From Pleomorphomonas sp. T1.2MG-36 (GTDB taxonomy: Bacteria; Pseudomonadota; Alphaproteobacteria; Rhizobiales; Pleomorphomonadaceae): 64,000 nucleotides of DNA. The stretch covers positions 620,001-684,000 of the forward strand of contig NZ_CATNLY010000012.1 in the NCBI RefSeq assembly GCF_950100655.1, read 5' to 3'. Both the position numbers and the translations under genes were made by a program. Of the stretch, positions 29,572 to 53,065 are shown piece after piece. The stretch's first letter is position 1, and every line of letters starts with the position of its first letter. The notes beneath the pieces are model-generated. The model was not told where the DNA came from. It saw only the letters and a list, made by a program, of their open reading frames with translations, and made no database searches.

Positions 29572-29615
29572 CGGCAGCGGCCCGGCCGCCCCTTCATCTT
29601 TCCAGGAGACATGCC

Positions 29616-31399: not shown

Positions 31400-31697
31400 C
31401 CGCCTCCCCGCCGTGCTCACCGGCACCGGCGTGATCGCCGGCCTTGTGACGACCGCCTGGTGGTGGATCGTCTACAGCCGCCAGATCGATGCCGGCAGCC
31501 TGCCGATCGCCAACGCCCTGCCCTGCCTCGCCCGAAAGACCGACATTTGCTCGCTGGCCGAGGCGCTGTGCGCGCAAACGCACCTTCTCGACATCACCCG
31601 CTATTCGCCGGCCGCCTTCTGGCTGTCGGTCGCCCTCCTCGCCGCCGGTCTCGTCCTCATCGGCCGGCGCTCACCGTCAAAGGAGACGCAAGCATGA
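31392..31697 (+). CDS. Small two-helix membrane protein with three cysteines
   Basis: A 101-residue protein not recognised as a known family. Helix 1 (about 11-28, with WWW) and helix 2 (about 74-91) flank a 45-residue loop that carries Cys45, Cys53 and Cys60 (PCLARKTDIC). The loop resembles the Cys-containing loops of vitamin-K-epoxide-reductase-like or disulfide-exchange proteins, but similarity is weak. The gene overlaps the ATPase gene and the sulfhydrylase gene, so it is an integral member of the sulfur operon. It may be an accessory subunit or thiol-handling protein. Confidence 0.7.
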   Translation: MSSRLPAVLTGTGVIAGLVTTAWWWIVYSRQIDAGSLPIANALPCLARKTDICSLAEALCAQTHLLDITRYSPAAFWLSVALLAAGLVLIGRRSPSKETQA

Positions 31698-33076: not shown

Positions 33077-33769
33077 TCACGAGACCCGACGCCGTCGCGC
33101 CAGACGATGGTTGACCGCGAAGGCGGCACGATCGCCGGCGAACTGGATCAGTTGAACCAGAACCACCAGGATGACGACGACGATCAGCATCACTTCCGGC
33201 ATGAAACGCTGGTAGCCGTAGCGGATGCCGAGATCACCGAGGCCGCCGCCGCCCACCGTGCCGGCCATGGTGGAATAGCCGACGAGGCTGACCAGCGTCA
33301 CCGTGACGCCAGCGACGATGCCCGGCAGCGCCTCGGGAATGATCACCTTGACGATGATCTGGAACGGCGTGGCGCCGATCGCTTCCGCCGCCTCGATCAG
33401 GCCGCGATCGACCTCGCGCATTGCCGTTTCGGCCAGGCGGGCGAAGAGCGGCGTGATGGCCACTGTGAGCGGCACGATGGCCGCCGAGGTGCCGACCGAC
33501 GTGCCAACCAGAAGCCGCGTCAGCGGGATGATCGCCACCATCATGATGATGAAAGGCGTCGACCGGATCAGGTTGACGAAGGTGCCGACCACCTTGTTGA
33601 GGAGCGGCCGGGTGAAGATGTGGCCCGGTGTCGTCACCACTAGCAGCACGCCGAGCGGCAGGCCCAGCACCAACGCCAGAACCGCCGATACCGACACCAT
33701 CACGGCCGTCTGCGTCAGCGATTCCAGGAGCAGATTGGCAAGTGCCGGACTAAGCAAACCGAACAACAT
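33077..33769 (-). CDS. metI: Methionine ABC transporter permease
   Basis: A 230-residue permease with five predicted membrane helices. The MetI pattern is clear: LLESLTQTAVMVSVSAVLALVLGLPLG at the start, NLIRSTPFIIMMVAIIPLTRLLVGTS, and the EAA loop EVDRGLIEAAEAIGATPFQIIVKVIIPEALPG. The final YSTMAGTVGGGGLGDLGIRYGYQRF is diagnostic. The ATG at 33769 overlaps the end of metN by 20 bases. It is the last gene of a five-gene reverse-strand operon. Confidence 0.95.
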   Translation of the reverse strand: MLFGLLSPALANLLLESLTQTAVMVSVSAVLALVLGLPLGVLLVVTTPGHIFTRPLLNKVVGTFVNLIRSTPFIIMMVAIIPLTRLLVGTSVGTSAAIVPLTVAITPLFARLAETAMREVDRGLIEAAEAIGATPFQIIVKVIIPEALPGIVAGVTVTLVSLVGYSTMAGTVGGGGLGDLGIRYGYQRFMPEVMLIVVVILVVLVQLIQFAGDRAAFAVNHRLARRRRVS

Positions 33770-34847
33770 GGCCGAGGACCTCCGCAAAGAGACCGAGAGA
33801 GACGAGATGGGCGACGATGGCCGGCAGATGCGCCTCGCCATTGGCAAGTGCCAGCGTCAGGACACCGAGCGGCCGGTCGCCGACATAGTCGATGCGGCCG
33901 AACAGGATGTTCGGCTCGACCGGGAAGCGGTGGACGAGGTCGGCGATGATCGGCTGGTGGGCATTGTCGCCCGAGAACACGATGCGCAGCACCGGATCGG
34001 TGTCCGGTCCCGCTTCGCTTCGCAGCCGGCGCTCGACGGGTGGCGGCAGCTCGTGGGCGACGAGGCCGGACAGGAACGACCGGGCCACCTGCGACTTCGG
34101 AAAGGCCAGGACGTCGAAGGTCGCCCCCTCCTCCACCAATCGTCCGCGTTCGAGAACGGCGACGTGGCTGGCGATGTCGCGAACCACCTGCATTTCGTGG
34201 GTGATCAGGACGATGGTCAGGCCGAGGCGTCGGTTGATGTCTTTCAGCAGCGAAAGGATCTGCTCGGTAGTCTCGGGATCGAGCGCCGACGTCGCCTCGT
34301 CGCAGAGAAGCACCGAAGGATCGGTGGCAAGTGCCCGGGCGATACCGACGCGCTGCTTCTGGCCGCCAGAGAGTTCCGACGGATAGCTTTTCGCCTTGTC
34401 GGCAAGGCCGACCAGGTCGAGCAGCGAGGGAATGCGCCTGTCGATCTCGGCGCGCGACAGGCCTATCACCTCCAGCGGCAGCGCGACGTTGCCCGCCACC
34501 GTGCGCGACGACAGCAGATTGAAATGCTGGAAGATCATGCCGATATCGCGCCGCGCCGAGCGGAGATCGGCGCCGGACAGCGCGGTGATATCCCGCTCGG
34601 CGACGAGCACCCGACCGCTGGTCGGGCGCTCCAGATTGTTGATGCAGCGCACCAACGTCGACTTGCCGGCGCCGGAGCGGCCGATGATGCCGTAGATGTC
34701 GCCCTGCCCGATGGTCAGCGAGACGTCCTCCAGCACGGGACCGACGGCAGGGTCGAAGGTCTTGCCGAGCCTTTCGAGGCAGATGGCCGGCGCTTTCGTC
34801 ACTACGTCGAACGGCGCGAAGTCGGCGGACGGAGGCAAGGCGTTCAT
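33750..34847 (-). CDS. metN: Methionine ABC transporter ATPase
   Basis: A 365-residue ATPase with Walker A GRSGAGKST, signature LSGGQKQRVGIARAL, Walker B LLCDEATSALDP and a C-terminal NIL (ACT-like) domain from about residue 285. In MetN the NIL domain binds methionine and inhibits transport when the cell is replete. It starts 11 bases after metQ and overlaps metI. MetNIQ imports D- and L-methionine and related compounds. Confidence 0.95.
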   Translation of the reverse strand: MNALPPSADFAPFDVVTKAPAICLERLGKTFDPAVGPVLEDVSLTIGQGDIYGIIGRSGAGKSTLVRCINNLERPTSGRVLVAERDITALSGADLRSARRDIGMIFQHFNLLSSRTVAGNVALPLEVIGLSRAEIDRRIPSLLDLVGLADKAKSYPSELSGGQKQRVGIARALATDPSVLLCDEATSALDPETTEQILSLLKDINRRLGLTIVLITHEMQVVRDIASHVAVLERGRLVEEGATFDVLAFPKSQVARSFLSGLVAHELPPPVERRLRSEAGPDTDPVLRIVFSGDNAHQPIIADLVHRFPVEPNILFGRIDYVGDRPLGVLTLALANGEAHLPAIVAHLVSLGLFAEVLGHVVRFA

Positions 34848-34858
34848 CGGCGTGCTCC

Positions 34859-35647
34859 TTACCAGCTGACGATGATGTTGCCCTCGAACTTCTTGGCGAT
34901 GAAGTCCTTCACCTCGGGCGAGCGGTAGGCTTCGACCAGCGTCTTGACCCAGGGCTTGTCAGCGTTCTCCGGCTTGACGGCGATCAGGCAGAAGTAATCG
35001 GACTGCTGGCTTTCGATCAGCAGCGCGTCGCGGCTCGGCAGCAGGCCGGCGCTGATGGCGAAATGCGAGGTGATGACCGAGAAATCGACGTCCTCCAGCG
35101 AGCGCGGCAACTGCGCCGTCTCAAGGGGAAGGATCTTCACATGCTTGGGATTGTCGACGATGTCGAGCTCGGTCGCCTTGAAGGTGACGCCCGGCGTCAG
35201 CTTGATGATGCCGCCCTGCTCCAGAAGCTTCAGGGCACGCCCGCCGTTGGAGGGATCGTTGGGAATGGTGATCTCGGCGCCGTCCGGCAGATCGGCAGCC
35301 GACTTCACCTTGTGCGAATAGGCCGCCATCGGCAGCAGCACGGTCTTGGCAACAGAGACGAGATGCAGGCCGCGGTCGGCGTTCTGCTGGTCGAGATAAG
35401 GCGTGTGCTGGAAGGCGTTGGCATCAAGGTCGCCATCCTCGGTGGCCGGGTCGATGAGCGCGCCGTCGGAGAACTCGACGATCTGAACGTCGAGTCCCTT
35501 GGCAGCGGCCACCGGCTTCAACGCCTCGGCGATCTCCGCATGCGGACCGGCGGTGACGCCGAGCTTGATGGTTTCGGCCGAGGCTCCGTTCGCGAGAGCC
35601 AATAGGAGGCCGATGGCAGAGGCGGCGAGCAGTTTTCTGGCGGTCAT
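34859..35647 (-). CDS. metQ: Methionine-binding periplasmic protein
   Basis: A 262-residue NlpA/MetQ family protein. The signal peptide ends LALANGASA before ETIKLGVTAGPHAEI; there is no lipobox cysteine, so it is probably a soluble periplasmic protein. Family blocks present are GALIDPATEDGDLDANAFQHTPYLD, ITIPNDPSNGGRALKLLEQGGIIKL and VKDFIAKKFEGNI at the end. It delivers methionine or analogues to MetNI. Confidence 0.93.
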   Translation of the reverse strand: MTARKLLAASAIGLLLALANGASAETIKLGVTAGPHAEIAEALKPVAAAKGLDVQIVEFSDGALIDPATEDGDLDANAFQHTPYLDQQNADRGLHLVSVAKTVLLPMAAYSHKVKSAADLPDGAEITIPNDPSNGGRALKLLEQGGIIKLTPGVTFKATELDIVDNPKHVKILPLETAQLPRSLEDVDFSVITSHFAISAGLLPSRDALLIESQQSDYFCLIAVKPENADKPWVKTLVEAYRSPEVKDFIAKKFEGNIIVSW

Positions 35648-35681: not shown

Positions 35682-37115
35682 TCATGGGAAAAACGTCGGC
35701 AAGCCGGCGGCCGCCGCGATGTCGTCCGGCAGCACCTTGCCGGGGTTGAGGATGTTGTCGGGATCGAGGGCTTTCTTCAGCAGCGCCATCACGGCGACAG
35801 CGTCGCGGCCGTGTTCGGCTTCGAGATAAGCGCGCTTGCCAAGGCCGACGCCATGCTCGCCGGTCGACGTGCCGCCGGCGGCAATGGCGCGCTCGACGAT
35901 GCGGGCGTTGAGGCGAGAAACCTCGGCCACCTCGGCGGAATCGTCCGGCTTGAGCTTGAACACGCAATGGAAGTTGCCATCACCGACGTGGCCGACGATG
36001 TAGGCGGGCACGCTGGACGTGGCGATGTCCGCCTCGGTTTCGAGAATGACCTCGGCGAGGCGCGACACCGGCACGCAGACGTCGGACGGCCAGGAGGTCG
36101 AACCCGGTCGTTCGCTGCCGGCCCAGCCGAGCCCGAGACGACGGGTTTCCCAAAGGGCGCGGGCCTCATCGAGCGTCTTCATCCAGGCGATGGCGCCGCC
36201 ATCATGTTCGGCGACGATCTCGGCCACCGCGCCGGCAACGGCGTCGATCTCCTCGACGCTGCCATGGAACTCGAAATAGAGCGTCGGTCTTTCCGGCAGG
36301 CGGATGGTGGAATGGCGGCCGATGACGCCGACGAGGCGCGCGTCGAGCAGTTCGACGCGGCCGATCTGCAAGCCCATCCGCTTGATGTCGACCACCGTCC
36401 GAACGGCGCCGTCCAGCGTGGCGAAGCCGGCAACGGCCGACACCGAGTCCGGCACCGGGTGCAGGCGCAGCGTCACTTCGGTGACGATGCCGAGCGTCCC
36501 TTCCGAGCCGACGAGAAGGCGTGTCAGGTCGTAACCGGCCGACGACTTGCGGGCCAGCGAACCCGTGCGGATGACGCGGCCGTCGGCGAGCACCGCTGTC
36601 AGGCCGAGGACGTTCTCGCGCATGACGCCGAAGCGAACGGCATTGGTGCCGGAAGCGCCCGTGCCGACCATGCCGCCGATCGACGCGTCGGCGCCGGGAT
36701 CGACCGGAAAGAACAAGCCGGTGTCGCGCAGGAAGGCATTGAGGGTTTGTCGACGGACGCCAGCCTCGACGCGGGCGATCATGTCGGCCTCGCGAACTTC
36801 CAGGATGCGATTGAGGCGGATGGTGTCGAGGCAGATACCGCCGTGGACCGGGATCGCCGCGCCTTCGAGGCCCGAACCGGCGCCGAAGGGCACGAGCGGC
36901 ACCTTGTGGCGGCTGGCGATGCGAAGGATTTCGACCACCTCCTCGGTGGTCTCCGGCTCGACGACGACATCCGGCAGGCTGACCGGATGATGACTTTCGT
37001 CACCGCCGTGATGGCGGCGGACCGCCTCGGAATCGCGGGCTCGCGCACCGAAGCGCGCCGTGAGCTCGGCGACGGCGCCCGACACGTCGGGCTTCAGGCG
37101 GAAGGGGCTGTTCAT
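35682..37115 (-). CDS. FAD-linked 2-hydroxyacid dehydrogenase (GlcD/D-lactate dehydrogenase type)
   Basis: A 477-residue flavoprotein of the VAO/PCMH family. The FAD-binding part has VPLVPFGAGSGLEGAAIP near residue 85, GGMVGTGASGTNAVRFG and SSAGYDLTRLLVGSEGTLGIVTE. The C-terminal substrate domain ends GGTSTGEHGVGLGKRAYL, with the conserved EHGVG histidine, and the ILNPGKV tail. Members oxidise D-lactate, glycolate or D-2-hydroxyglutarate. Here it sits between metQ and a methionine-type aminotransferase and overlaps the latter by four bases. I infer a sulfur hydroxyacid such as D-2-hydroxy-4-methylthiobutyrate as possible substrate. Confidence 0.88.
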   Translation of the reverse strand: MNSPFRLKPDVSGAVAELTARFGARARDSEAVRRHHGGDESHHPVSLPDVVVEPETTEEVVEILRIASRHKVPLVPFGAGSGLEGAAIPVHGGICLDTIRLNRILEVREADMIARVEAGVRRQTLNAFLRDTGLFFPVDPGADASIGGMVGTGASGTNAVRFGVMRENVLGLTAVLADGRVIRTGSLARKSSAGYDLTRLLVGSEGTLGIVTEVTLRLHPVPDSVSAVAGFATLDGAVRTVVDIKRMGLQIGRVELLDARLVGVIGRHSTIRLPERPTLYFEFHGSVEEIDAVAGAVAEIVAEHDGGAIAWMKTLDEARALWETRRLGLGWAGSERPGSTSWPSDVCVPVSRLAEVILETEADIATSSVPAYIVGHVGDGNFHCVFKLKPDDSAEVAEVSRLNARIVERAIAAGGTSTGEHGVGLGKRAYLEAEHGRDAVAVMALLKKALDPDNILNPGKVLPDDIAAAAGLPTFFP

Positions 37116-38290
37116 TCGGCGGCAGCCCGAACGCCGGCGCCAGCGCGCCAGGATGCAAGGCGGCGGACCGCTTCCTCGATCGTCTCGCGGCGCTTGGCAA
37201 AGCAGAAGCGAATATGAGATCGGACATCCCGGTTGCCATAGAAGGAAGAGATCGGCACCGCCGCGACGCCCGCTTCGCGGGTGATGCGCTGGCAGAAGGC
37301 GAAATCGTCGCCCTCCGGGTCGAGGTCGCCAAGCTCGGCCAGGGCGAAGTAGGTCGCTTCGACGTCGGCCACCTTGAAGCCCGCCGCCCTGAGGCCGCCG
37401 ACCAGAAGATCGCGCCGTTCGGTCAGCGTCGCGCGCAAGCCGTCGAAATAGGCGTCCGGCTGGTTGAGGCCGAAGGCCACCGCCGCCTGCAGGGCCGGCG
37501 GCGTCGTGAAGGTGATGAACTGATGCGCCCGCGAGATCGGCGCCAACAGGCGGCGATCGGCCGTGACATAGCCGACCTTCCAGCCGGTAACCGAGAAGGT
37601 CTTGCCGGCCGAGCCGATGCGCACCACCCGGTCCCGAACCTCCGGCAGGGCGAACAGCGTCCGATGATGGCGACCGTCGAAGACCAGATGCTCGTAGACC
37701 TCGTCGGAGATCGCGATGAGATCGTGCTTCAGGAGCAGATCGGCGAGAAAGCGCAGTTCCTCGTCGCCGATGATGCGGCCGGTCGGGTTCCAGGGCGTAT
37801 TGACGACGATCGCCCGCGTGCGCGGCGTGATCGCCCTTTCGATCCGGTCGGTCGGCAACTCCCAGCGGGGCGGTTCGAGACGCACCGGGACCGGGACGCC
37901 TCCGGCGCGGCGGATGATGGTGGCGTAGCTGTCGTAGACCGGCTCGAGCAGGATCACCTCGTCGCCGGGCTCGATGAGGCCGAAAAAGGCATCGCTCAGC
38001 GCTTCTGTCGCTCCGGAAGTGACGAGCACCTCCTGCTCCCAGTCGACCTCGATGTCGAGAAAGCGTCTGGTGTTGGCGGCCACCGCCTGACGCAGAGCCG
38101 GCAGACCCAACATGGGCGGATATTGATGCGGCCCGGCGCGCAGCGCTTCGATCGCCGCTTCGATGACGGCCTCAGGCTCCAGCCCTTCCGGAAAGCCCTG
38201 CCCTAGATTGATGGCATTGGTTTCCACCGCAAGGCGCGACATGGCCTCGAAGATGGAGGTGCCGATCGCGCTGAAAATCGAGCTGACCAT
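37112..38290 (-). CDS. Class I/II aminotransferase, YbdL-like (methionine/KMTB)
   Basis: A 392-residue fold-type I PLP aminotransferase; the Schiff-base lysine is Lys230 in GSAGKTFSVTGWKVGY. The N-terminal INLGQGFPEGLEP, the NTPWNPTG segment and the late DVEATYFALAELG are typical of the YbdL/kynurenine aminotransferase branch, which prefers methionine and its keto acid KMTB. It is the first gene of the operon with the hydroxyacid dehydrogenase and MetQNI. A role in converting 2-keto-4-methylthiobutyrate to methionine is therefore likely but inferred. Confidence 0.85.
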   Translation of the reverse strand: MVSSIFSAIGTSIFEAMSRLAVETNAINLGQGFPEGLEPEAVIEAAIEALRAGPHQYPPMLGLPALRQAVAANTRRFLDIEVDWEQEVLVTSGATEALSDAFFGLIEPGDEVILLEPVYDSYATIIRRAGGVPVPVRLEPPRWELPTDRIERAITPRTRAIVVNTPWNPTGRIIGDEELRFLADLLLKHDLIAISDEVYEHLVFDGRHHRTLFALPEVRDRVVRIGSAGKTFSVTGWKVGYVTADRRLLAPISRAHQFITFTTPPALQAAVAFGLNQPDAYFDGLRATLTERRDLLVGGLRAAGFKVADVEATYFALAELGDLDPEGDDFAFCQRITREAGVAAVPISSFYGNRDVRSHIRFCFAKRRETIEEAVRRLASWRAGAGVRAAAE

Positions 38291-39268: not shown

Positions 39269-39290
39269 AGAATACTAAATCTGTCGTCTA
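39269..39290 (+). promoter_or_regulatory. Sulfur-block operator, copy 3 (oxygenase promoter)
   Basis: The site reads AGAATACT, seven bases, then TCGTCTA. Positions 39271-39290 agree with the Mar-operon copy at 19 of 20 bases (AATACTAAATCTGTCGTCTA here). It ends 64 bases before the oxygenase start codon in the same orientation as the gene, close to where promoter elements are expected. Confidence 0.75.
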
Positions 39291-39354
39291 TAAGAAGGCC
39301 ATGCTCGAATGAGGAAAGACGCCGGCGTGGCGCCAATTCCCGAGGAGCTTGTCC

Positions 39355-40410
39355 ATGACCTACCAGCCGACCTCCGTCACCTTGCCCTTCGTCGACATTT
39401 CCCGCTTCCGGGGACCGGCCGAGGAGCGGGGCCGCTTCATCGACGAAATCCGGCGCATTCTCTACGATCATGGCTTCTTCTATCTGACCGGCCACGGCGT
39501 GCCGCAAGCGCTGATCGACGACGTGCTCGCCCAGTCGCGCCGGTTCTTCGCCCTGCCCATCGAGGAGAAGCTGAAGGTCGAAATGGCCAACTCGCCGCAT
39601 TTCCGAGGCTACAACCGACCCGGCTGGGAGCTGACGCGCGGCGAGAAGGACTGGCGCGAGCAGATCGACATCGCCACCGAGGCGGAACGGCTGCCGGAAG
39701 ATCCGGACAAGCCATGGAACCGGTTGACGGGCCCCAACCAGTGGCCGGAAGGGCTGCCTGACTTCAAGCCGCTCATCCTGCGCTATCAGGCGGAAGTGAC
39801 GCGCGTCGGCCTCGAGGTTCTGAAAGCCATTTCGGTCGCACTCGGCCAGGACGAGGAAGTCTTCTCCGACATCTACACGCCGCTGCCGACGCAGTTGCTG
39901 AAGCTGATCCGCTACCCGGGTCGTGACGTCGCCGAGAGCTCGCAAGGCGTCGGCGCCCACAAGGATGGCGGCTTCGTCACCGTGCTGTTGCAGGACAAGG
40001 TCGCGGGCCTGCGCGTCCGTACCGAGGAGGGCGTGTGGATCGAGGCGCCGCCGGTGCCGGGTACCTTCATCATCAACACGGGCGAAGTGCTGGAATTGGC
40101 GACGCAGGGCTATGTTCGCGCCGACGTCCATGACGTGGTGGCGCCGCCAGCCGGCAGCGAGCGCCTGTCGGTCGCCTTCTTCCTCGGCGCGCACGTCGAT
40201 TCCGTGGTGCCGGTGATCGAGCTACCCGAGGAGATCAAGGACAAGCGGCGCGGCGTGACGGTCGATGCGCTCAACCCGATCTTCCAGCAAGTGGGTCGCA
40301 ACGCGCTGAAGAGTCGCCTTCGGTCGCACCCCGACGTTGCCAGGCGGCACCACGCAGACCTGCTGACGGAGGCGGAACGGACCGCGACCGGCCCTGGGTC
40401 GGCCTACTGA
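39355..40410 (+). CDS. Isopenicillin-N-synthase-like Fe(II)/2-oxoglutarate oxygenase
   Basis: A 351-residue oxygenase of the IPNS/DIOX family. The N-terminal DIOX_N domain reads PFVDISRFRG ... LYDHGFFYLTGHGVP. The iron ligands are His202, Asp204 (GVGAHKDGGFVTVLLQD) and His259 (ADVHDVVAP), and Arg270-x-Ser272 binds the 2-oxoglutarate carboxylate. The ATG at 39355 has GAGGAG upstream; a TTG two codons earlier is less likely. Its promoter shares a nearly identical operator with the Mar-like operon, so I infer a role in oxidising an organosulfur compound. No substrate can be read from the sequence. Confidence 0.88.
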   Translation: MTYQPTSVTLPFVDISRFRGPAEERGRFIDEIRRILYDHGFFYLTGHGVPQALIDDVLAQSRRFFALPIEEKLKVEMANSPHFRGYNRPGWELTRGEKDWREQIDIATEAERLPEDPDKPWNRLTGPNQWPEGLPDFKPLILRYQAEVTRVGLEVLKAISVALGQDEEVFSDIYTPLPTQLLKLIRYPGRDVAESSQGVGAHKDGGFVTVLLQDKVAGLRVRTEEGVWIEAPPVPGTFIINTGEVLELATQGYVRADVHDVVAPPAGSERLSVAFFLGAHVDSVVPVIELPEEIKDKRRGVTVDALNPIFQQVGRNALKSRLRSHPDVARRHHADLLTEAERTATGPGSAY

Positions 40411-40545: not shown

Positions 40546-40983
40546 TCAGCTGGCGAGTGCTGCGGCGCTGGACTTCTCCAGCATGTCGGCGAGGGTCGTA
40601 CGGTCGAGAACCTCGGCGATGGCGTCCCTCACCTCGGTCATGACGATGCGGACCGAGCAGGTCGAAAGATCGCCGCAGTCGTCGCAAGGCTGGAAAGCGG
40701 TACGGCTGGCGCAGGCAATCGGCGCCAGCGGTCCGTCCAGTGCCCGCACCACCGGCCCGACCACGATCTCGGATGCCGGACGGCTCAACGCGAACCCGCC
40801 GCCCGGTCCCTTCCAGGACCGAACGAAGCCAGCGTTCTTCAAATCCCGCATGATGGCGTCGAGGAATTTCTTGGAAATGTTCTCGCGCGCGGCGATTTCC
40901 GCAACCTGGACCGCCTTGCCCGGCTCCGATCGGGCAAGGTGGACCAGTGCCTTGAGCCCGTATTTGCCCTTCTTGGTCAGCAT
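40546..40983 (-). CDS. Rrf2-family transcriptional regulator (CymR/IscR-like)
   Basis: A 145-residue winged-helix protein with the Rrf2 pattern: MLTKKGKYGLKALVHLA at the start, AEIAARENISKKFLDAIMRDLKNAGFVRSWKGPGGGFALSR for recognition helix and wing, then the dimerisation helix. Cys91, Cys100, Cys103 and Cys109 (PIACAS...CDDCGDLSTC) form a cluster that could bind an Fe-S centre or sense thiols. The ATG at 40983 starts the family consensus. CymR and IscR-type relatives control cysteine and Fe-S metabolism. It lies in the middle of the sulfur block, divergent from the amino-acid transporter, and is the best candidate regulator of the shared operators. Confidence 0.88.
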   Translation of the reverse strand: MLTKKGKYGLKALVHLARSEPGKAVQVAEIAARENISKKFLDAIMRDLKNAGFVRSWKGPGGGFALSRPASEIVVGPVVRALDGPLAPIACASRTAFQPCDDCGDLSTCSVRIVMTEVRDAIAEVLDRTTLADMLEKSSAAALAS

Positions 40984-41124
40984 CGATCGCCTCCGGACGT
41001 ACCCGGCCGAGATAGCCGGGCATGCGAATGGCGTCAATTGCAGAGCATTGCTCCGGCGCCCCCGGAGCGCGGAAAATGGCGTTTCTCACGACCATCGGGC
41101 GAACGTGGAACGAAATTCGCCATT

Positions 41125-44663: not shown

Positions 44664-44843
44664 AAAGCTGATGACCTGTCGACATAACGGCTAACCTTCG
44701 CTGAAATCCTGGCTGTATCCGGCATCGTCCGGACCAATAGCAAGCGCGATGTCGTGCGACACCGAAGCCAGATGCAACCTTCTTCTTTCGGTCTGTTCGC
44801 CAATACGGTGAGCAACCGACCGTTTTCTCTTGGGAGACACTCC

Positions 44844-46229
44844 ATGTCCGCTCTCCGGAAACCCGCCCATTCGGCGCTCGACCTGATCGGCGCCACGCCG
44901 GTCGTCGAACTCACTCGCTTCGATACCGGCCCCTGCCGCCTGTTCGTCAAGCTCGAAAGCGCCAATCCCGGTGGGTCGATCAAGGATCGCGTCGCCCTTT
45001 CGATGATCTCCGCCGCCGAGGCCGACGGCCGCCTGAAGCCCGGTGGAACCATCATCGAGGCGACCGCCGGCAACACCGGCCTCGGCCTTGCCCAGGTCGG
45101 CCTGCCCAAGGGCTACAAGGTGATCCTCATCGTGCCCGACAAGATGTCGCGCGAGAAGATCGCCCACCTGCGCGCGCTCGGCACCGACGTACGCATCACC
45201 CGCTCCGACGTCGGCAAGGGCCACCCCGCCTATTACCAGGACATGGCCGAGCGTCTCGCCTCCGAACTTGGCGCCTTCTACGTCAACCAGTTCGCCAACC
45301 CGGCCAACCCTGCCGCCCACGAGACGACGACCGCGCCGGAGATCCATGCGCAGCTTGACGGCGACGTCGACGCCATCGTGGTCGGCGTCGGCTCCGGCGG
45401 CACACTTTCGGGCATCGGTCGCTACTTCAAGCGGGTATCGCCGAAAACCGAGATGGTGCTCGCCGACCCCTCCGGCTCCGTTCTGGCGCCGCTCGTCAAC
45501 ACGGGCGAACTGATCGAAGCCGGCTCCTGGGCCGTCGAAGGCATCGGCGAGGACTTCGTGCCGCCCAACTGCGACCTGTCGCTGGTGTCGTCGGCCTATA
45601 CCGTCACCGACGCCGAAAGCTTCGCCACCGCCCGCGAACTGCTCTCCAAGGAGGGCATCCTGGCCGGATCCTCGTCCGGCACGCTGCTGGCGGCGGCGCT
45701 CAAGTATTGCCGCGCCCAGACGACGCCCAAGCGCGTGGTCACTCTCGTTTGCGACACCGGCGCCAAGTACCTCTCCAAGGTCTACGACGACAGCTGGCTC
45801 GCCGAGCAGGGGCTGGCCGACCGGCCGGTCCGCGGCAACCTCTCCGATCTGGTCATCCGCCGCCAGCAGGATGGTTCCACCGTGACCGTCGCTCCCGACG
45901 ACACGCTGGCGACCGCCTACAAGCGGATGCGGCAGGCTGACGTGTCGCAGTTGCCCGTGGTTGCGGGCGGGCGGCTCGTCGGCATCATCGACGAGAGCGA
46001 CCTCTATGCCGCCTTGGGGCGCGGAGCGGTGGCCGGGCAGGCCCGCTTCGGAGAGGCCGTCGGCAACCACATGATCACCGATCTGCACACGCTGCAGTCC
46101 ATCGATCCCGTCAGCGCCGCCCTCCCCCTGTTCGAGCGCGGCGAAGTCGCCCTGGTGCTCGACGGCAGCGATTTTCTCGGCGTGGTCACCCGCGTCGATC
46201 TCATCAATCACCTGAGGCTTCACTCGTGA
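44844..46229 (+). CDS. Cystathionine beta-synthase
   Basis: A 461-residue PLP enzyme that joins serine and homocysteine to cystathionine. The PLP lysine is Lys47 in NPGGSIKDRVAL, followed by EATAGNTGLGLA and the phosphate-binding GVGSGGTLSGIGRYFK. Two C-terminal CBS repeats (about residues 335-455, DLVIRRQQDGSTVTVAPDDTL and HMITDLHTLQSIDPV) distinguish it from cysteine synthase. GGGAGA precedes the ATG. With the overlapping downstream gene it forms a reverse-transsulfuration pair converting homocysteine to cysteine. Confidence 0.9.
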   Translation: MSALRKPAHSALDLIGATPVVELTRFDTGPCRLFVKLESANPGGSIKDRVALSMISAAEADGRLKPGGTIIEATAGNTGLGLAQVGLPKGYKVILIVPDKMSREKIAHLRALGTDVRITRSDVGKGHPAYYQDMAERLASELGAFYVNQFANPANPAAHETTTAPEIHAQLDGDVDAIVVGVGSGGTLSGIGRYFKRVSPKTEMVLADPSGSVLAPLVNTGELIEAGSWAVEGIGEDFVPPNCDLSLVSSAYTVTDAESFATARELLSKEGILAGSSSGTLLAAALKYCRAQTTPKRVVTLVCDTGAKYLSKVYDDSWLAEQGLADRPVRGNLSDLVIRRQQDGSTVTVAPDDTLATAYKRMRQADVSQLPVVAGGRLVGIIDESDLYAALGRGAVAGQARFGEAVGNHMITDLHTLQSIDPVSAALPLFERGEVALVLDGSDFLGVVTRVDLINHLRLHS

Positions 46230-47404
46230 CCTACCAGCCCCCGCGCATCAATCATCGGCTCGCCTTCTCGACCCGCACCATCCACGGCGGCCAGAGCCAT
46301 GATCCGACCACCGGCGCCGTGATGGTGCCGATCTACGCCACCTCCACGTTCGCCCAATCGAGCCCCGGCGTGCACAAGGGCTGGGAATACGGCCGCACCC
46401 ACAACCCGACGCGTCAGGCCTTCGAGCGGGCGATCGCCGACCTCGAAAGCGGCACCGCCGGCTTCGCCTTCGCCTCGGGCCTTGCCGCCATCGCCAACAT
46501 CCTGGAAACCCTCGACCATGGCGCCCATATCGTCGCCTCCGACGATCTCTATGGCGGCACCTTCCGGCTGATCGACAAGGTGCGTCGCCGCTCGGCCGGT
46601 CTCGACGTCTCCTTTGCCGACTTCCGCGATCCGGCTGCCATCGAGGCGGCGATCCGGCCAGGGACGAAGCTGATCTGGGTGGAGACGCCAACCAACCCGA
46701 TGCTGAAGATCGTCGATCTCCAGGCGATCGCCGCCATCGGCCGCAAGCGCGGCATCGTCACCGTCGCCGACAACACCTTCGCCAGCCCCGCCATCCAGCG
46801 CCCCCTGGAGCTCGGCATCGACCTCGTCGTCCACTCGACGACAAAATATCTCAACGGTCATTCCGACATGATCGGCGGCGCGGTTGTGGTGGGCGATAAC
46901 GCCGAGCTGCGCGAGCGCCTCACCTTCCTGCAGAATGCCGTTGGCGCGGTCTCCGGGCCGTTCGACAGCTTCCTCGCGCTGCGCGGCCTGAAGACGCTGG
47001 CGCTCAGGATCGAGCGCCACTCGTCCAACGCGCTTGCCATTGCCCGCTATCTCGAGGGACGGAGGGGTGTGCGACGGGTGATCTATCCCGGCCTCGAAAG
47101 CCATCCGCAACATGCTCTCGCCAAATCGCAGATGTCGGCCTTCGGCGGCATCGTCAGCGTCGAGCTCGACCGTGATCTTGAGGGCACCAAGCGCTTCCTT
47201 GAGAACACCAGGCTGTTCACGCTGGCCGAAAGCCTCGGTGGCGTCGAAAGCCTGATCGAGCATCCGGCCATCATGACGCATGCCTCTATCCCTGCCGAAC
47301 AGCGCGCCAAGCTCGGCATCTCCGATGGCTTCGTTCGCCTGTCGGCCGGCATCGAGGACAGCGGCGACCTGATCGACGACCTCAGGGCCGCCCTCGACGC
47401 CTGA
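46226..47404 (+). CDS. Cystathionine gamma-lyase / gamma-synthase family enzyme
   Basis: A 392-residue PLP enzyme starting at a GTG that overlaps the CBS stop. The Cys/Met family pattern is complete: STRTIHGGQSHDPTTGAVMVPIY, YGRTHNPTRQAFE, LYGGTFRL, WVETPTNPMLK, and the PLP lysine Lys207 in VVHSTTKYLNGHSD. Coupling to CBS favours gamma-lyase, which splits cystathionine to cysteine, 2-oxobutyrate and ammonia. Gamma-synthase activity cannot be excluded from sequence. Confidence 0.9.
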   Translation: MTYQPPRINHRLAFSTRTIHGGQSHDPTTGAVMVPIYATSTFAQSSPGVHKGWEYGRTHNPTRQAFERAIADLESGTAGFAFASGLAAIANILETLDHGAHIVASDDLYGGTFRLIDKVRRRSAGLDVSFADFRDPAAIEAAIRPGTKLIWVETPTNPMLKIVDLQAIAAIGRKRGIVTVADNTFASPAIQRPLELGIDLVVHSTTKYLNGHSDMIGGAVVVGDNAELRERLTFLQNAVGAVSGPFDSFLALRGLKTLALRIERHSSNALAIARYLEGRRGVRRVIYPGLESHPQHALAKSQMSAFGGIVSVELDRDLEGTKRFLENTRLFTLAESLGGVESLIEHPAIMTHASIPAEQRAKLGISDGFVRLSAGIEDSGDLIDDLRAALDA

Positions 47405-47477: not shown

Positions 47478-48347
47478 TCAAGCCACGGCGCGTGCCCGCT
47501 CGGCCCGTTCCATCTGGACGATGTGCTCGGCCCAGCGCGCCGACCAGTCGCGCAGTTCCGACTGGCTGAGCGGCGTCGGCACCTTCGACTGTTCGTGGCC
47601 GGCGATGTGGCGAGCGAGCGCACGGTAGACGTCGGCCTGCTCGGAGTGCGGCGCGGCCTCGATGGTCGTCTTGCCCGACAGCTCGGCCTGGGTGACGGTC
47701 AGCGAGCGCGGCACGAACTGGACGATCGGCGTCGAGGTCTTGGCCGAAAAGTCCTCGATGATCTCGCGCTGGAAGTCGGTGTTGATCGAGTTGGCGATGA
47801 TGCCGCCCAACAGCGCGCCGCCGCTCGACGAGAATTTCTCGATGCCGCGGAACAGGTTGTTGGCGGCGTAGATGGCCATGAAATCGGCAGAGGACACGGT
47901 GAACACGTGTTCGGCAATGCCCTCGCGCACCGGTACGGCAAAGCCGCCGCACACCACGTCGCCCAGCACGTCGTAGATGACGAAGTCGAGGTCAAGATCC
48001 TCGAACACCCGCTGCTGCTTCAGGAGCTCGACGGCGGTGATGATGCCGCGGCCGGCGCAGCCGACACCCGGCGCCGGACCGCCCGCCTCGACGCAGTAGA
48101 TGCCGGCAAAGCCCTTGAACACCGCCTCGCGGGCATCGACCCGGCGCTTCTCGGCCAAGAGGTCGAGCACAGAAGGGATGTATTCGCCGCCACGCAGCGT
48201 CGTCGTGGAATCGGCCTTCGGATCGCAGCCGAACTGCATCACCTTGTAGCCGGCCTCGGCAAGCGCGGCGGAGATGTTGGAGGTGGTGGTCGACTTGCCG
48301 ATGCCGCCCTTGCCGTAGATGGCGATCTGCTTGGGTTTGCGGGACAT
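47478..48347 (-). CDS. marH: NifH-like reductase (MarH candidate)
   Basis: A 289-residue P-loop ATPase that passes electrons to the D/K component. Walker A GKGGIGKST lies at residues 12-20, and Cys97 (CAGRGI) and Cys133 (DVVCGGF) are the ligands of the subunit-bridging [4Fe-4S] cluster. Arg100 matches the ADP-ribosylation site of nitrogenase reductase. The C-terminal 40 residues diverge from NifH. It is the last gene of the operon, 32 bases after the NifB-like gene. Close overall similarity to NifH does not by itself separate it from true nitrogenase; context does. Confidence 0.85.
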   Translation of the reverse strand: MSRKPKQIAIYGKGGIGKSTTTSNISAALAEAGYKVMQFGCDPKADSTTTLRGGEYIPSVLDLLAEKRRVDAREAVFKGFAGIYCVEAGGPAPGVGCAGRGIITAVELLKQQRVFEDLDLDFVIYDVLGDVVCGGFAVPVREGIAEHVFTVSSADFMAIYAANNLFRGIEKFSSSGGALLGGIIANSINTDFQREIIEDFSAKTSTPIVQFVPRSLTVTQAELSGKTTIEAAPHSEQADVYRALARHIAGHEQSKVPTPLSQSELRDWSARWAEHIVQMERAERARAVA

Positions 48348-48379
48348 GAAATACTCCTTGAGGATTGAAAAGCGGGCGG

Positions 48380-49321
48380 TCAGCCGTGTGAGAACGTGGG
48401 TTCGGTCTGCAGATCGTCGCCGTAGAGATCGGCCGTGTAGTCGGAGAGTCCGGGCACGCCTGCGGCATCGGCACGGCAGCGCTGGCAGTGGGTGAACACC
48501 TTGAGATGCCGTGCGGCATCGGCGCGCGCCTTGTGTCGCTCAATGAAGGTCGGTTCCTTCAAGTGGGCGAGCTGATGCTCGGGGATCAGCGGGATGACGT
48601 TGATCATCCGCGCGCCGGCCGCCGCCACCGTTTCCGCCACTTGCCCGATGTGATGATCGTTGATGGTGGGGATCAGCACCGTGTTGATCTTGATGGTGAA
48701 ACCGAGCTCGGCAGCACGGGCGATGCCCGTGAGCTGACTGTCGATCAGCCGCCGTGCCGCTTCGATGCCGTCGAGCCGTTTGCGCTCCCAGGCGAGCTTC
48801 GGCGTGATCTTGGCCTGAATCTCCGGATCGACGGCATTGACCGTCACCGTCAGCGTGACCACGCCGGCCGCGTGGAGATCGCCGATGCGCGCCGGCAATT
48901 GTAGGCCGTTGGTCGAAACGCAGAGCGTCAGGTGGGGCCAGCGGGCATGGATCTCGGCGAAGGTCTCGATGGCATGGTCGGAGGCGAGCGGATCGCCGGG
49001 GCCGGCGATGCCGACGACGGTGAGATTGGGGATCAGCCGCAGCGCCCGCTCGACGACTTCGACGGCTTCCTGGGACTTGAGCAGACGGGCGGCGACGCCG
49101 GGCCGCTGTTCGACGCGGTTGAAATCGCGCCGGCAGAAGGCGCAGGCGATGTTGCAGAGTGGAGAGACGGGAAGATGCAGTCGCGCCGCCTTGGCATGGC
49201 CCTCCGCCGTGGTCGAAAAGCAGGGATGCTTGCCTTCGAGGTCGGGGAAAGCCGGCTGCATGGCGGCCTGCCGCATGCCGTGTGCCGCGCAGGCCGAGGA
49301 GGCTATGCCTGAAACGCTCAT
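48380..49321 (-). CDS. marB: NifB-like radical SAM cofactor synthase (MarB candidate)
   Basis: A 313-residue radical SAM protein. The AdoMet cluster motif CX3CX2C is at Cys56, Cys60, Cys63 (LCNIACAFC). The upstream KHPCF (Cys34) and the C-terminal HCQRC (Cys279, Cys282) are NifB-specific cysteines that hold the precursor clusters, and GIAGPGDPL follows. NifB fuses two [4Fe-4S] units and inserts carbide to make the 8Fe core. The C-terminal NifX domain found in many NifB proteins is absent and encoded by the previous gene instead. The ATG at 49321 overlaps that gene's stop; an upstream ATG at 49441 lies within it and is rejected. Confidence 0.85.
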   Translation of the reverse strand: MSVSGIASSACAAHGMRQAAMQPAFPDLEGKHPCFSTTAEGHAKAARLHLPVSPLCNIACAFCRRDFNRVEQRPGVAARLLKSQEAVEVVERALRLIPNLTVVGIAGPGDPLASDHAIETFAEIHARWPHLTLCVSTNGLQLPARIGDLHAAGVVTLTVTVNAVDPEIQAKITPKLAWERKRLDGIEAARRLIDSQLTGIARAAELGFTIKINTVLIPTINDHHIGQVAETVAAAGARMINVIPLIPEHQLAHLKEPTFIERHKARADAARHLKVFTHCQRCRADAAGVPGLSDYTADLYGDDLQTEPTFSHG

Positions 49322-49710
49322 GCTGCGGCCTCCGCGCTGAACAGGCCGCCGAAGGCGGCGAGCTGACGGACTGTGTCGTCCACCGTGTCGTCGGTCTCGA
49401 AGGCGAGAATGCCGAGCTTGGTCAGCCTGTTGATGGCGCATTCGCCGAGACGCGACACCACCACGGCCTTGCAGTCGGCGATCAGAGCCACCGAGGCATC
49501 CATCACCACCTCGGCCTGATCGCCGCAGCCCGAGCCGCAGGCGGGGCGGTTGTTGCGGGATTCGAGATAGCGAGAGCCGGCGGGGCCGACTTCCCAGATC
49601 TCGAAGCGGGTGGCATGGCCGAAATGCTCGCTCACCCTGGCGCCCGTCGCGGTGCCGATGGCGACGCGCACCGCGCCGGAGGAAGGAGCGGGATCGGAGA
49701 GTGCCGTCAT
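49318..49710 (-). CDS. NifX-like cofactor-binding protein
   Basis: A 130-residue protein of the dinitrogenase iron-molybdenum cofactor family (NifX/NifY/VnfX fold). The core reads VRVAIGTATGARVSEHFGHATRFEIWEV, with the His of the HFGHA motif, then CGSGCGDQ, then IADCKAVVVSRLGECAINRLTKLGI. Related proteins hold and shuttle cofactor precursors between NifB and the catalytic component. It overlaps both the K gene and the NifB-like gene by four bases. It looks like the detached C-terminal domain of NifB. Confidence 0.85.
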   Translation of the reverse strand: MTALSDPAPSSGAVRVAIGTATGARVSEHFGHATRFEIWEVGPAGSRYLESRNNRPACGSGCGDQAEVVMDASVALIADCKAVVVSRLGECAINRLTKLGILAFETDDTVDDTVRQLAAFGGLFSAEAAA

Positions 49711-51110
49711 AGCGCGGCGACCTCCGGGTTTTCCTCGGTCGACTGGCGGACCACCGTCGTATAGGTGCGCTCGATCAGTTGCAGCGCGCCGCGATAGCCG
49801 ATGTAGGAGCGCGACAGCACCACCTCGTCGGTCACCGGATAGCTGATCTCGACCAGCGGCGCGCCGATCTCGCCTGCCAGTCCCGCCTCCCAGGTCGAGC
49901 CGAAGACGATCGGCAGTTCGCCGATCCTTGGATGAGCCCGAAGGACGGCATGGGCCTTGTGTCCGTCGGATTCGAACAGCGGATCGGCATCGATGCTCGG
50001 CGCCAGATCGCGGAAAGCGTCACGGATCGCCTCGCGCTCGGTCTCCGGCGGGTTCTCGGTGATGACGATGACGCCGGGGTTGAGGCCGAGGTCGCCGACC
50101 AGGAACTTGGCGACGGCCAGCGCATAGGCGCTGTCGGCGACGATGTTCACTTCCGACGGCAGCCGGTACTGGCTGGTGCAGTTGGCATAGAAGGCCGCGA
50201 AGTCGCGCAGGTAGTGGTAGTAGGTCTTCTCCTCGCGGGCGATGAAGGCGTCCACCTTGCGCCTGTCGATGCCGGCATGGTCGCCCACCTTGCGCAGGAA
50301 GGCCGCCGTCTCGCGCGCACCGACCGGCAGGGCCGGAATGTGCAGAGTGCTCTGGCCGTAGGCGGCCTTGAGATCGCGGGCCACCGAAACGCCGAGCCAA
50401 GGGCTGAGCACGAGGTTGAACGCGGCGGCAGGAATGGCGCGCCACTCGGAAAGGCCGGCCGAGGCTGGGCCGAACAGAATGTTCACCTCCAGGCCGATGC
50501 CTTCGAGAATGCGCCTGAGTTCGGTAAGATCGCCGCGCCAGAACGGGTTCTGATAGGGCAGCAGCGCCCAGACGTTGACGAGGCCGGCCCGCTTCGGCTG
50601 TTCCGGTTGCTTTGCCACATACTGTTCGATGATCGCCTTCACCACCGTCTCGTGGCCGGTGAAGTTAGTGCCGCGATAGCCGAGCGTTTCGGCGAACACG
50701 ATGGGCACGCCGCGCCGCTGGTAGCCCTTCACCAGGTTCTCGACGTCGTCGCCGACGAGGCCGGGAATGCAGCCGGACTGCACGACGTAAAGCTCGGCCT
50801 CCATCACCTTCAGCGTCGAGGAGATCAGTTCGTCGAGCCGGTCGGCGCCGCCGAAGATCACCTCCTTGTTGCCAATGTTGCTGGACGGCACGTGGAACTC
50901 GCCCCCCTGATAGCCGGAGATGCCGGACAGCGCGTGGAACTGCTTGGAGGCGCAGCCAGGGCCGCAATGGGTGATGGGGATCGCCCCTTCGATGGCGATC
51001 ACCGAGGTGAGCGCGCCGAGGGCGCAGGCATAACGCACCTGCTCGATCGGCCCCGGCGGGGCCGCGAAGGAGTCGGAGGTGTCCTGGGAAACATAGCTGA
51101 CGATGTTCAT
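49707..51110 (-). CDS. marK: Nitrogenase-like component 1 beta subunit (MarK candidate)
   Basis: A 467-residue NifK homologue, shorter than the 520 residues common in NifK. Cys29, Cys53 (HCGPGCASKQ) and Cys114 (VQSGCIPGLVGDDV) have the spacing of the three P-cluster ligands of NifK. An additional Cys49 lies close by. No extended N-terminal NifK domain is present. It starts 13 bases after the D gene and overlaps the NifX-like gene. With D it should form the heterotetramer carrying a P-cluster. Confidence 0.85.
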   Translation of the reverse strand: MNIVSYVSQDTSDSFAAPPGPIEQVRYACALGALTSVIAIEGAIPITHCGPGCASKQFHALSGISGYQGGEFHVPSSNIGNKEVIFGGADRLDELISSTLKVMEAELYVVQSGCIPGLVGDDVENLVKGYQRRGVPIVFAETLGYRGTNFTGHETVVKAIIEQYVAKQPEQPKRAGLVNVWALLPYQNPFWRGDLTELRRILEGIGLEVNILFGPASAGLSEWRAIPAAAFNLVLSPWLGVSVARDLKAAYGQSTLHIPALPVGARETAAFLRKVGDHAGIDRRKVDAFIAREEKTYYHYLRDFAAFYANCTSQYRLPSEVNIVADSAYALAVAKFLVGDLGLNPGVIVITENPPETEREAIRDAFRDLAPSIDADPLFESDGHKAHAVLRAHPRIGELPIVFGSTWEAGLAGEIGAPLVEISYPVTDEVVLSRSYIGYRGALQLIERTYTTVVRQSTEENPEVAAL

Positions 51111-51123
51111 CGGTCTCTCCGGC

Positions 51124-52638
51124 TCACTCGGCGGCCTCAGTGGTGTCGAGGGCGTAGGGATTGGTCTCCTCCAGCCACCATTTCTGGTAGGGGAAGGACG
51201 AATGGGCGGCGACGTCCTCGTAGAAGCGCCGGCGCGGCAACACGCGCAGGATGGCGCGGCCGATGGTCAAAAGACCCTCGTAGCCGAGACCGTCGTTGGA
51301 ATAGAAGATCGGCAGCACCGGAATGCCCAGCCGGCCGGCCAACGTGGCGGTGGTGCCGGAATGACGGCAGATGACGAAGTCCGGATTCGAACGCTTCAGC
51401 GCCGCATGCGTCTGGAAATGCTGGTCCGGGCTGACGGTGAAGTTCTCGATGTCGCCGGTGGTCTCGATGAGATGGCCGAGCGAATCCTGCTCGGGATCGC
51501 GGCTGTCGGTCGAGGGATCGTGGTGGAAGGAATAGGCGTCGTCGACGGTGACGCCCAGCTCGCGCAGATCGGCGATCAGGCCATGAGCGAAGGCGGCGCC
51601 GGCGGCAACGAAGCCCTTCTTGCCCTTGAGGAGGCGCCGGAGGCGCTCCAGTTCCGGCGCGATACGAGCCCGTTCGGAGGCGATCACCGCCTCGACCAGA
51701 TGCGTCCGCCCGGTGACGCGGGCGATGTCGCGCAGCCAGTTGTCGGTGGCCTCCTGCCCATAGGGCAGCGGCGCGCGGATTTCCGGCACGCCGTATTCCT
51801 GCTCGAGGCCGGTGGCGAGGTAGCTCAGCACGAAGCACATGGTCACCGTCGCCGCCGCCGTGGATAGGTCGGCGAGGCGTTCGAGCGAGTTGCCACCCAT
51901 GATCAGGTTGACCTTTAGGCCCAGTGGCTCGACCAGCGGCGTGAACACGTCCGGGCCGCCGAGGTGGATGACATTGAGAAGATCGGGGTTCTTCTCATGC
52001 GTCCGGTCCGGCACCAGGCGGCGCAGGATGCCATGCTCGATGACGTCCCAGCCGGACGACCAGTGCCGCGACTTGAAGCCCTCGCAATGCAGGGCAACCA
52101 CGGGAATGCCGAGCTCGTCTTCGAGCTGGCGGACCGTGCCGTCGACGTCGTCGCCAATGATGCCGGTGGCGCAGGAGGTGGCGACGAAGATGACGCGCGG
52201 CTTGTGCCGCTCATAGGCGTCGCGGATCGTCTCGGCGAGGCGCTCGACGCCGCCGAACACCATGTCCTGCTCGCCGAGATTGGTGCAGATCGACTTGGGG
52301 TCCTCGGGCTTCCAGCCGCGCCGGGCGGCGAGATCGCGGGAATAGCGCGAGGTGAACGACTGGCTGGAGGCGCAGCCGATCGGCGAATGCTGGATGACCA
52401 CCGTGTCCTTGATGATGGTGGCATTGGTGACCGCGATCTGCTCGGCGCACATCGAGGCCTGCGAATATGGGCTGTTCAACTCGCAGAGGCGCTTGCCGCC
52501 GGGGCCGCAATCGCGACCGCAGCCGAAGGTGAAGGCCGAATCCTTGGCGAGCTGGGAAGCGGGGCCATCCCACTGAGTGATGGTGCCAAGACGCTGATCG
52601 CGCGTCTCGGCCTGAGGTGTACGAAGATTGATCGGCAT
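51124..52638 (-). CDS. marD: Nitrogenase-like component 1 alpha subunit (MarD candidate)
   Basis: A 504-residue NifD homologue, first gene of the operon. Cys64, Cys89 (HSPIGCA) and Cys156 (TSCATGIIGDDV) reproduce the spacing of the NifD P-cluster cysteines 62/88/154. Cys268 (TVTMCFVLSYL...EYGVPE) aligns with the cofactor ligand Cys275. The cofactor ligand His442 aligns with Leu451 (LGYEG), and the catalytic Gln191 and His195 align with Trp193 and Trp197 after CEGF. The enzyme thus probably carries an 8Fe cofactor without Mo/homocitrate. With the sulfur context this points to methylthio-alkane reductase rather than nitrogen fixation. The specific function is inferred. Confidence 0.85.
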   Translation of the reverse strand: MPINLRTPQAETRDQRLGTITQWDGPASQLAKDSAFTFGCGRDCGPGGKRLCELNSPYSQASMCAEQIAVTNATIIKDTVVIQHSPIGCASSQSFTSRYSRDLAARRGWKPEDPKSICTNLGEQDMVFGGVERLAETIRDAYERHKPRVIFVATSCATGIIGDDVDGTVRQLEDELGIPVVALHCEGFKSRHWSSGWDVIEHGILRRLVPDRTHEKNPDLLNVIHLGGPDVFTPLVEPLGLKVNLIMGGNSLERLADLSTAAATVTMCFVLSYLATGLEQEYGVPEIRAPLPYGQEATDNWLRDIARVTGRTHLVEAVIASERARIAPELERLRRLLKGKKGFVAAGAAFAHGLIADLRELGVTVDDAYSFHHDPSTDSRDPEQDSLGHLIETTGDIENFTVSPDQHFQTHAALKRSNPDFVICRHSGTTATLAGRLGIPVLPIFYSNDGLGYEGLLTIGRAILRVLPRRRFYEDVAAHSSFPYQKWWLEETNPYALDTTEAAE

Positions 52639-52743: not shown

Positions 52744-52765
52744 TAGACGATAGATTTAGTATTTT
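52744..52765 (-). promoter_or_regulatory. Sulfur-block operator, copy 4 (Mar promoter)
   Basis: On the reverse strand the site reads AAAATACT, seven bases, then TCGTCTA. Twenty bases (AATACTAAATCTATCGTCTA) differ by one from the oxygenase copy at 39271-39290. It lies 105 bases before the D start codon, in the gene's orientation. Confidence 0.75.
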
Positions 52766-52853: not shown

Positions 52854-52992
52854 TAAGATATTTCACTTAGCCCGTCTTCCGGTTCACCAGCCGCTGTCAA
52901 TTGTTCGCTCGCAACGGGCACGGGAAGCGCGATCACAGCGGCGGACGGCCAACTGAACAAGTCCAACAATATCAATGTCGATTGGATGGTCT

Positions 52993-53065
52993 GGAGGCCA
53001 CGGAGGGAATCGAACCCCCGTACACGGATTTGCAATCCGCTGCGTCACCACTCCGCCACGTGGCC
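52993..53065 (-). tRNA. tRNA-Cys (anticodon GCA)
   Basis: The reverse strand folds as a cloverleaf: acceptor arms GGCCACG and CGTGGCC, anticodon loop TTGCAAA with GCA, T-loop TTCGATT. The CCA end is encoded (52993-52995). It lies directly upstream of the Mar-like operon on the same strand. Confidence 0.97.

Follow-up and report, generated by a model that had tools for sequence, protein, structure and literature searches.

A nitrogenase-like D-K-X-B-H operon of Pleomorphomonas encodes a probable methylthio-alkane reductase of a separate clade

Which enzyme is encoded by the five nitrogenase-like genes at 47478-52638 of a 64,000-nucleotide stretch of Pleomorphomonas sp. T1.2MG-36 (contig NZ_CATNLY010000012.1, positions 620,001 to 684,000; the window hereafter), and is it the same enzyme as the methylthio-alkane reductase (Mar) of Rhodospirillum rubrum? 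The latter is the sole member of the family with a solved structure that was found in the copy of the Protein Data Bank (PDB) searched. Judged from the sequences, the operon quite probably encodes a Mar-family reductase that cleaves the C-S bond of thioethers. Its D and K proteins belong to a clade of their own within the Mar group, apart from R. rubrum, here named clade B. The best reading is that of a second Mar isoenzyme, which would likely hand methanethiol to the O-acetylhomoserine sulfhydrylase MetY. Tentatively, we propose that its substrate range differs from that of the R. rubrum enzyme.

The genes lie on the reverse strand and are transcribed in the order D-K-X-B-H. D (51124-52638, 504 amino acids) is the MarD-like catalytic alpha subunit and K (49707-51110, 467 amino acids) the MarK-like catalytic beta subunit. 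X (49318-49710, 130 amino acids) is a gene of its own for a cofactor protein resembling NifX or the C-terminal domain of NifB; B (48380-49321) is, according to family models, a radical SAM maturase resembling the NifB core, and H (47478-48347, 289 amino acids) is an Fe protein of the MarH type. The open reading frame (ORF) listed for B begins at 49441, and an alternative start at 49321, likely the true one, yields an ATGA overlap with X. With this start, K/X and X/B both overlap by ATGA, and D/K and B/H are separated by 13 and 32 bp. Pfam gave Oxidored_nitro for D (2e-74) and K (4e-63), Nitro_FeMo-Co for X (1e-18), Radical_SAM for B (2e-17) and Fer4_NifH for H (3e-99). With NCBIfam, D, K and X stayed far under the nif cut-offs (D with 138 of 654 bits for nifD), B was under the nifB cut-off (250 of 344 bits) and H cleared nifH with 401 bits at a cut-off of 394. 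ORFs, Pfam and NCBIfam hence confirm the initial annotation, which had described five reverse-strand NifD-, NifK-, NifX-, NifB- and NifH-like genes without nifEN in the window: D and K are the only component-1 genes there, and further component-1 genes of the genome are on another contig, C23. It was also right that the gene order is unlike that of R. rubrum, which is marBHDK (Rru_A0793-0796). Homologues of B, H, D and K are all present together, a feature of Mar membership, with B judged by its nifB match alone.

The closest PDB chains of D, K and H were indeed those of R. rubrum Mar (9fmg/9d9u), with 582, 538 and 521 bits, and the next non-Mar matches had 141, 65 and 283 bits. Identity to the R. 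rubrum proteins is 53% for D, 55% for K and 80% for H. An AlphaFold2 model of D, based on a 53-row alignment and with a mean pLDDT of 81.3, was closest to 9fmg_A with a TM score of 0.85 by query and 0.92 by target length, followed by 9d9u with 0.71 and 0.93; among the 50 matches listed, non-Mar chains reached a target TM of at most 0.78. In phylogenetic trees, D and K were placed with the Mar lineages and apart from the other Nfl rows; the outgroups were two Nif-type and eight Nfl rows in a quick D tree (the only tree with Nif-type rows), four Nfl rows in a careful D tree and ten in the K tree. H fell into the MarH group beside R. rubrum MarH and is an ordinary MarH. The Mar identity put forward in the initial annotation is therefore supported by PDB scores, trees, fold match and the cluster ligands described below, and the phylogeny of D, K and H that it had called for set D and K apart as a separate subclade.

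In the careful D tree (53 rows: 46 locus rows, six listed proteins and R. rubrum), the window protein is in clade B, which comprises 20 rows and has a support of 100/100. The sister group of clade B (99/92) is clade C1 with 4 rows (100/97), the monophyly of clade A with its 25 rows including R. rubrum is only moderately supported (91/56), and four other Nfl rows are outside the Mar clades. Clade B was also recovered in the quick D tree (34 of 105 rows) and in the quick K tree (22 of 87 rows), with an SH-aLRT of 100 each, both trees carrying long-branch warnings. For the quick D tree, 16 locus prefixes were dropped as near-duplicates or by thinning, together with seven short or doubled pieces, and 16 of 120 listed proteins were taken; the K and H trees were thinned likewise. 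The placement of C1 is in conflict, since the D tree makes it the sister of clade B and the K tree joins it to a part of clade A (95). Heliobacterial NflDK5/MarDK, which the accessible text of PMC9147875 puts into group IV-C with R. rubrum MarDK, is found in clade A and not in clade B (rows L051 and L061). A second Mar clade is not evident in the accessible part of the open-access literature; in other published material, the original description of Mar included, clade-B sequences may already figure simply as Mar. With D and K in a subclade of their own, the substrates of R. rubrum Mar cannot simply be carried over.

Residue roles in R. rubrum MarD and MarK were taken from the accessible text of the structure paper (PMC12552129), and R. 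rubrum numbering is used unless window D is named. The survey of D covered 38 clade-B, 62 clade-A, six C1 and ten Nfl rows, some of them near-duplicates. All 38 clade-B rows keep the P-cluster ligands Cys66, Cys91 and Cys158, the Fe8S9C-cluster ligands Cys270 and His429 (Cys268 and His426 in window D), and Arg428, His194, Trp195 and His375; the P-cluster ligands Cys32, Cys56 and Cys121 of K are kept in 22 of 22 clade-B rows. From these ligands, clade-B DK is predicted to carry a P-cluster and an Fe8S9C-type cluster, the same as in R. rubrum Mar. Unlike the ligands, the surroundings of the cofactor are changed. Phe199 is replaced by Trp in 36/38 rows, Cys73 by Thr in 33/38 and Gln74 by Asn in 30/38, and window D has Trp, Thr and Asn; in the accessible text of PMC12552129, the lining by Cys73, Gln74 and Phe199 is described for one enzyme and not as a rule of the family. 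Next to ligand or lining residues, Phe269 is replaced by Met, one residue is deleted at 274 and Val373 is replaced by Ser, each in 38/38 rows, and the stretch 443-452 is altered as well (sequence positions only).

How widespread is clade B? A scan of the genome collection, which took the best 80 of 263 relatives, gave 77 loci, and 20 of them (L022-L041) have a clade-B D. Their hosts are Pleomorphomonas, Rhodopseudomonas, Rhodoblastus, Roseiarcus, Siculibacillus, Magnetospirillum, Telmatospirillum, Rhodopila and others, including metagenome-assembled genomes; further clade-B proteins come from Blastochloris viridis (P0020) and a Terracidiphilus bin (P0050). The D protein of Pleomorphomonas koreensis is 98% identical to window D. 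For at least 13 of the 20 loci (L023, L025, L029, L030, L031, L033-L038, L040 and L041), a clade-A or C1 D is present in the same genome. Among the unpaired loci, L022, L026, L027, L032 and L039 (genomes G004, G291, G011, G276 and G007) had one match each in whole-genome searches; for L024 and L028 the unpaired status is that seen among the best 80 of 263 relatives alone. In a sample of the order, in which at most three first-look candidates were scored per genome, 10 of 397 genomes had a match. Judged by their identity to window D, seven of these have clade B only (G000, G004, G007, G011, G012, G276 and G291), two have both types (G003 and G048) and one has clade A only (G155). A class-wide sample of 385 genomes gave no further match, the single hit being the genome studied here.

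The arrangement of the accessory genes follows this pairing. The D-K-X-B-H layout is found in six of the seven unpaired clade-B loci, several of which are close kin, and in one of the 13 paired ones (L025); in the unpaired exception L028, X, B and H are about 9 kb off, and in L040 X-B-H is between the two DK pairs. This fits a sharing of accessory proteins, and we infer that MarH and MarB serve both DK types where both are present. Some genomes have more elaborate arrangements. G048 has two tandem clade-A D genes followed by one K (X-B-H-D-D-K; L110 from 8909) and a clade-B metY-D-K set elsewhere (L109), and a Rhodopila genome bin has three Mar-type DK pairs in 21 kb, one of clade B and two of C1 (L037). 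In Firmicutes (L052, L055, L063, L066 and L098), extra Nfl D/K genes with about 33-42% identity are beside clade-A Mar genes; the extra D rows examined there keep the Arg-His pair and have Ile or Val in place of His194.

The connection to sulfur metabolism is seen in the neighbouring genes. Directly upstream of D in 10 of the 20 clade-B loci (L028-L031, L033, L034, L036-L038 and L041) is metY on the same strand, with 14-43 bp between the end of its aligned part and D. Within about 10 kb, MetY is encoded in 14 of the 17 clade-B loci with complete flanks, a cystathionine gamma-lyase (CGL) in 13, a cystathionine beta-synthase (CBS) in 12, a 2-oxoglutarate (2OG) oxygenase in 10 and SsuA in 7. For the 27 clade-A loci with complete flanks, the counts are 6 for MetY, 9 for CGL, 5 for CBS and 1 for the oxygenase; a sub-list of seven of them from Pseudomonadota has MetY in none, CBS, CGL and the oxygenase in one each and SsuA in three. 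This contrast is descriptive, since neighbours were scored by identity to the window proteins, which favours the kin of clade B, and the loci are related.

In the window itself, an SsuA-family substrate-binding protein (28480-29571), an SsuC/TauC-type permease (approximately 29874-30597, the matched part of ORF 28863-30614), an SsuB-type ATPase (approximately 30659-31375, the matched part of ORF 29879-31399) and MetY (31733-33004, the matched part of ORF 31460-33004) are encoded on the forward strand. They are followed on the reverse strand by a methionine importer at 33077-35647 (MetI 33077-33847, MetN 33750-34847, MetQ 34859-35647) and an Rrf2-family regulator (40546-41037), which matches the CymR and IscR models under their cut-offs. 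A CBS-like protein with PALP and CBS domains (44754-46229) and a member of the cystathionine gamma-lyase/synthase family (46226-47404), both on the forward strand, lead up to the operon. MetY, MetI and MetQ/NlpA exceeded a model cut-off, and the SsuA-type, MetN, CBS and CGL-family proteins are family-level matches under the cut-offs shown; at these levels, the sulfur-gene surroundings noted in the initial annotation are as it had stated. Beside MetNIQ, a FAD-linked oxidase (GlcD-like) and a methionine-aminotransferase-like enzyme (35682-38290, reverse strand) could serve the salvage of hydroxy- or keto-methionine.

The window is on contig C12 of the genome, which has a size of 5.2 Mb, a completeness of 99.99% and a contamination of 2.56%. 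This genome also has an ordinary nitrogenase set, nifH and four component-1 genes (nifHDKEN), on C23 together with nifX, and a separate nifB on C34. A second Mar pair was not found in it: the six component-1 matches are the four on the nif contig and the window pair. A single locus on C23 encodes MtnK (507 bits, cut-off 275), MtnA (397 bits, cut-off 279) and a class II aldolase (PF00596, 8e-52). Such a set makes 2-methylthioethanol in the dihydroxyacetone phosphate (DHAP) shunt, and it is a possible source of this compound here.

For the enzyme itself, we infer cluster chemistry and products by analogy with the R. rubrum enzyme. MarB and X would assemble the [Fe8S9C] cluster, which would be held by Cys268 and His426 of window D. 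MarH2 would spend ATP to send electrons via the P-cluster of DK to this cluster, where R-S-CH3 would be reduced to CH3SH and a hydrocarbon. MetY could then convert CH3SH and O-acetylhomoserine to methionine, and CBS and CGL could pass the methionine sulfur on to cysteine. A likely internal substrate would be 2-methylthioethanol derived from methylthioadenosine (MTA), because MtnK, MtnA and the aldolase are encoded together in the genome; alternatively, the substrate could be an imported sulfur compound. Release of ethylene by this bacterium is a prediction along the same lines. A step further, clade-B DK may be a functionally distinct second Mar that, in genomes with both types, uses the same MarH and MarB as the classical enzyme, is linked straight to MetY and accepts a different thioether in a remodelled pocket, a proposal that we hold with slightly less than even confidence.

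Several observations weigh against a Mar-type thioether reductase working with MetY in this way. MetY and CBS are not beside every clade-B D (14 and 12 of the 17 full loci), the metY of the window is 18 kb from D, albeit in the same sulfur island, and the SsuABC neighbour fits sulfonate uptake equally well. The class II aldolase is under all 12 NCBIfam cut-offs listed and its role as methylthioribulose aldolase is putative; of an MTA phosphorylase, there was just a sub-cut-off purine nucleoside phosphorylase match, and MTA nucleosidase was not sought. The Arg428-His429 pair, proposed as a possible hallmark of Mar, is present in 10/10 of the more distant Nfl rows as well, and therefore the pair alone is no proof of Mar; His194 occurs in 0/10 of these. 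Finally, 30 columns of D are fixed differently between clade B (38 rows) and clade A (62 rows) and 148 are fixed alike (a fixed column being one with at least 90% in each clade), and since some of the differences line the active site in R. rubrum, the substrate may differ from that of R. rubrum Mar.

Apparently, the most serious competitor is a plain Mar isoenzyme that acts on the R. rubrum substrates, the split between the clades reflecting drift or regulation only. We regard this as possible, though somewhat less likely than not. It would agree with the same fold, the same ligands and the highly identical MarH, and clade B can stand alone, as it does in 7 of the 10 matching genomes of the order sample. 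Retention of two types in one genome and the changes at positions 199, 269 and 274 argue against it. An improbable explanation is a sulfonate reductase akin to isethionate reductase (Isr) and fed by SsuABC. Like the operon studied here, IsrBHDK of Rhodobacter capsulatus is a Group IV nitrogenase-like system with a radical SAM partner and an Ssu-type transporter nearby, and R. capsulatus SsuCAB, from the same locus as isrBHDK, imports isethionate (accessible text of PMC11423573); SsuABC-type genes are indeed in the sulfur island of the window. IsrD, however, has one of the three P-cluster cysteines and lacks the NifD-type cofactor ligands, and IsrB is not NifB-like (13.8% identity to NifB), according to the same text. 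None of these features was found in the window proteins: D retains all three P-cluster cysteines and both Mar-type ligands, B has 250 bits to nifB, and the direct neighbour in half of the clade-B loci is metY and not sulfite reduction. This comparison is one with published descriptions of IsrD and IsrB.

Two pairs of DK type in one genome, as with NifDK and NifEN, would also be expected if clade-B DK were a NifEN-like scaffold that matures R. rubrum-type MarDK. This is very improbable, since the host genome has no other Mar-type DK and clade B is the only type in six further genomes, which already contradicts a scaffold, and since clade-B D and K have lost neither the His ligand nor any of the six P-cluster cysteines. 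Least of all do we expect a true or alternative nitrogenase, an assignment that is next to impossible. The operon shares with Mo-nitrogenase NifHDK the architecture, the Fe protein and the P-cluster ligands, and H clears the nifH cut-off. However, D did not reach the cut-offs for NifD, VnfD or AnfD, the residues for N2 reduction (NifD Val70, Gln191, His195 and Gly424) are replaced in clade-B D by Thr/Asn, Trp, Trp and Arg, and the genome has separate nif genes.

A second Mar isoenzyme would be of use in several ways. A variant with the same cluster ligands and fixed changes at pocket positions would offer a direct route to the residues that set the choice of C-S substrate on Fe8S9C. More bacteria would have to be counted as possible producers of methane, ethane or ethylene from organosulfur compounds in oxygen-poor soil or water, and metY-D-K would be the gene marker to search for. 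If the enzyme is functionally distinct, bacteria with both types would have access to two ranges of organosulfur compounds and give off different hydrocarbons.

How might the operon be regulated? A conserved element of 21 bases, AAAATACTAAATCTATCGTCT, is upstream of D (52745-52765, reverse strand). An alignment of six loci shows it to be conserved, most weakly in the Ancalomicrobiaceae locus, and it is likely a promoter or operator of the D-K-X-B-H operon. A second copy with two mismatches (39269-39289, forward strand) begins 80 bp before the ORF of a 2OG/Fe(II) oxygenase family protein (DIOX_N and 2OG-FeII_Oxy domains, 39349-40410, forward strand); from dinucleotide shuffles of the window, 0 such copies are expected. 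A scan of 416 kb of loci with up to five mismatches gave eight matches in 6 of the 20 clade-B loci, and one mononucleotide shuffle of the 416 kb gave one. The element is before D in L022, L025, L026, L027 and L039, and before the oxygenase and, in a five-mismatch form, before ssuA in Siculibacillus L032; one match in L022 (6301) has no listed gene downstream. The same scan gave none in the other 14 clade-B loci, Rhodopseudomonas included. Of the extra loci, L113 (G012) has the element before both D and the oxygenase, L112 and L114 are repeats of L032 and L039, and L065 has one match without a listed gene. The oxygenase is likely part of the same regulon as the Mar operon, and the element likely marks a sulfur regulon in which an anaerobic and an oxygen-dependent enzyme would be paired.

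The best PDB match of the oxygenase was 9ovh (201 bits), which stems from a study on the reconstruction of ancestral ethylene-forming enzymes (accessible text of PMC12329707). Its assignment as a true ethylene-forming enzyme was dropped, since other entries named ethylene- or succinate-forming had 44 to 70 bits versus 201 for 9ovh. A search of the window for sigma-54 (-24/-12) sites gave one match with one mismatch, at 7763, and shuffles were equally good. In an Rfam scan, the window had two tRNAs only; a tRNA-Cys(GCA) gene (52992-53065, reverse strand) precedes marD by about 350 bp, in the same orientation.

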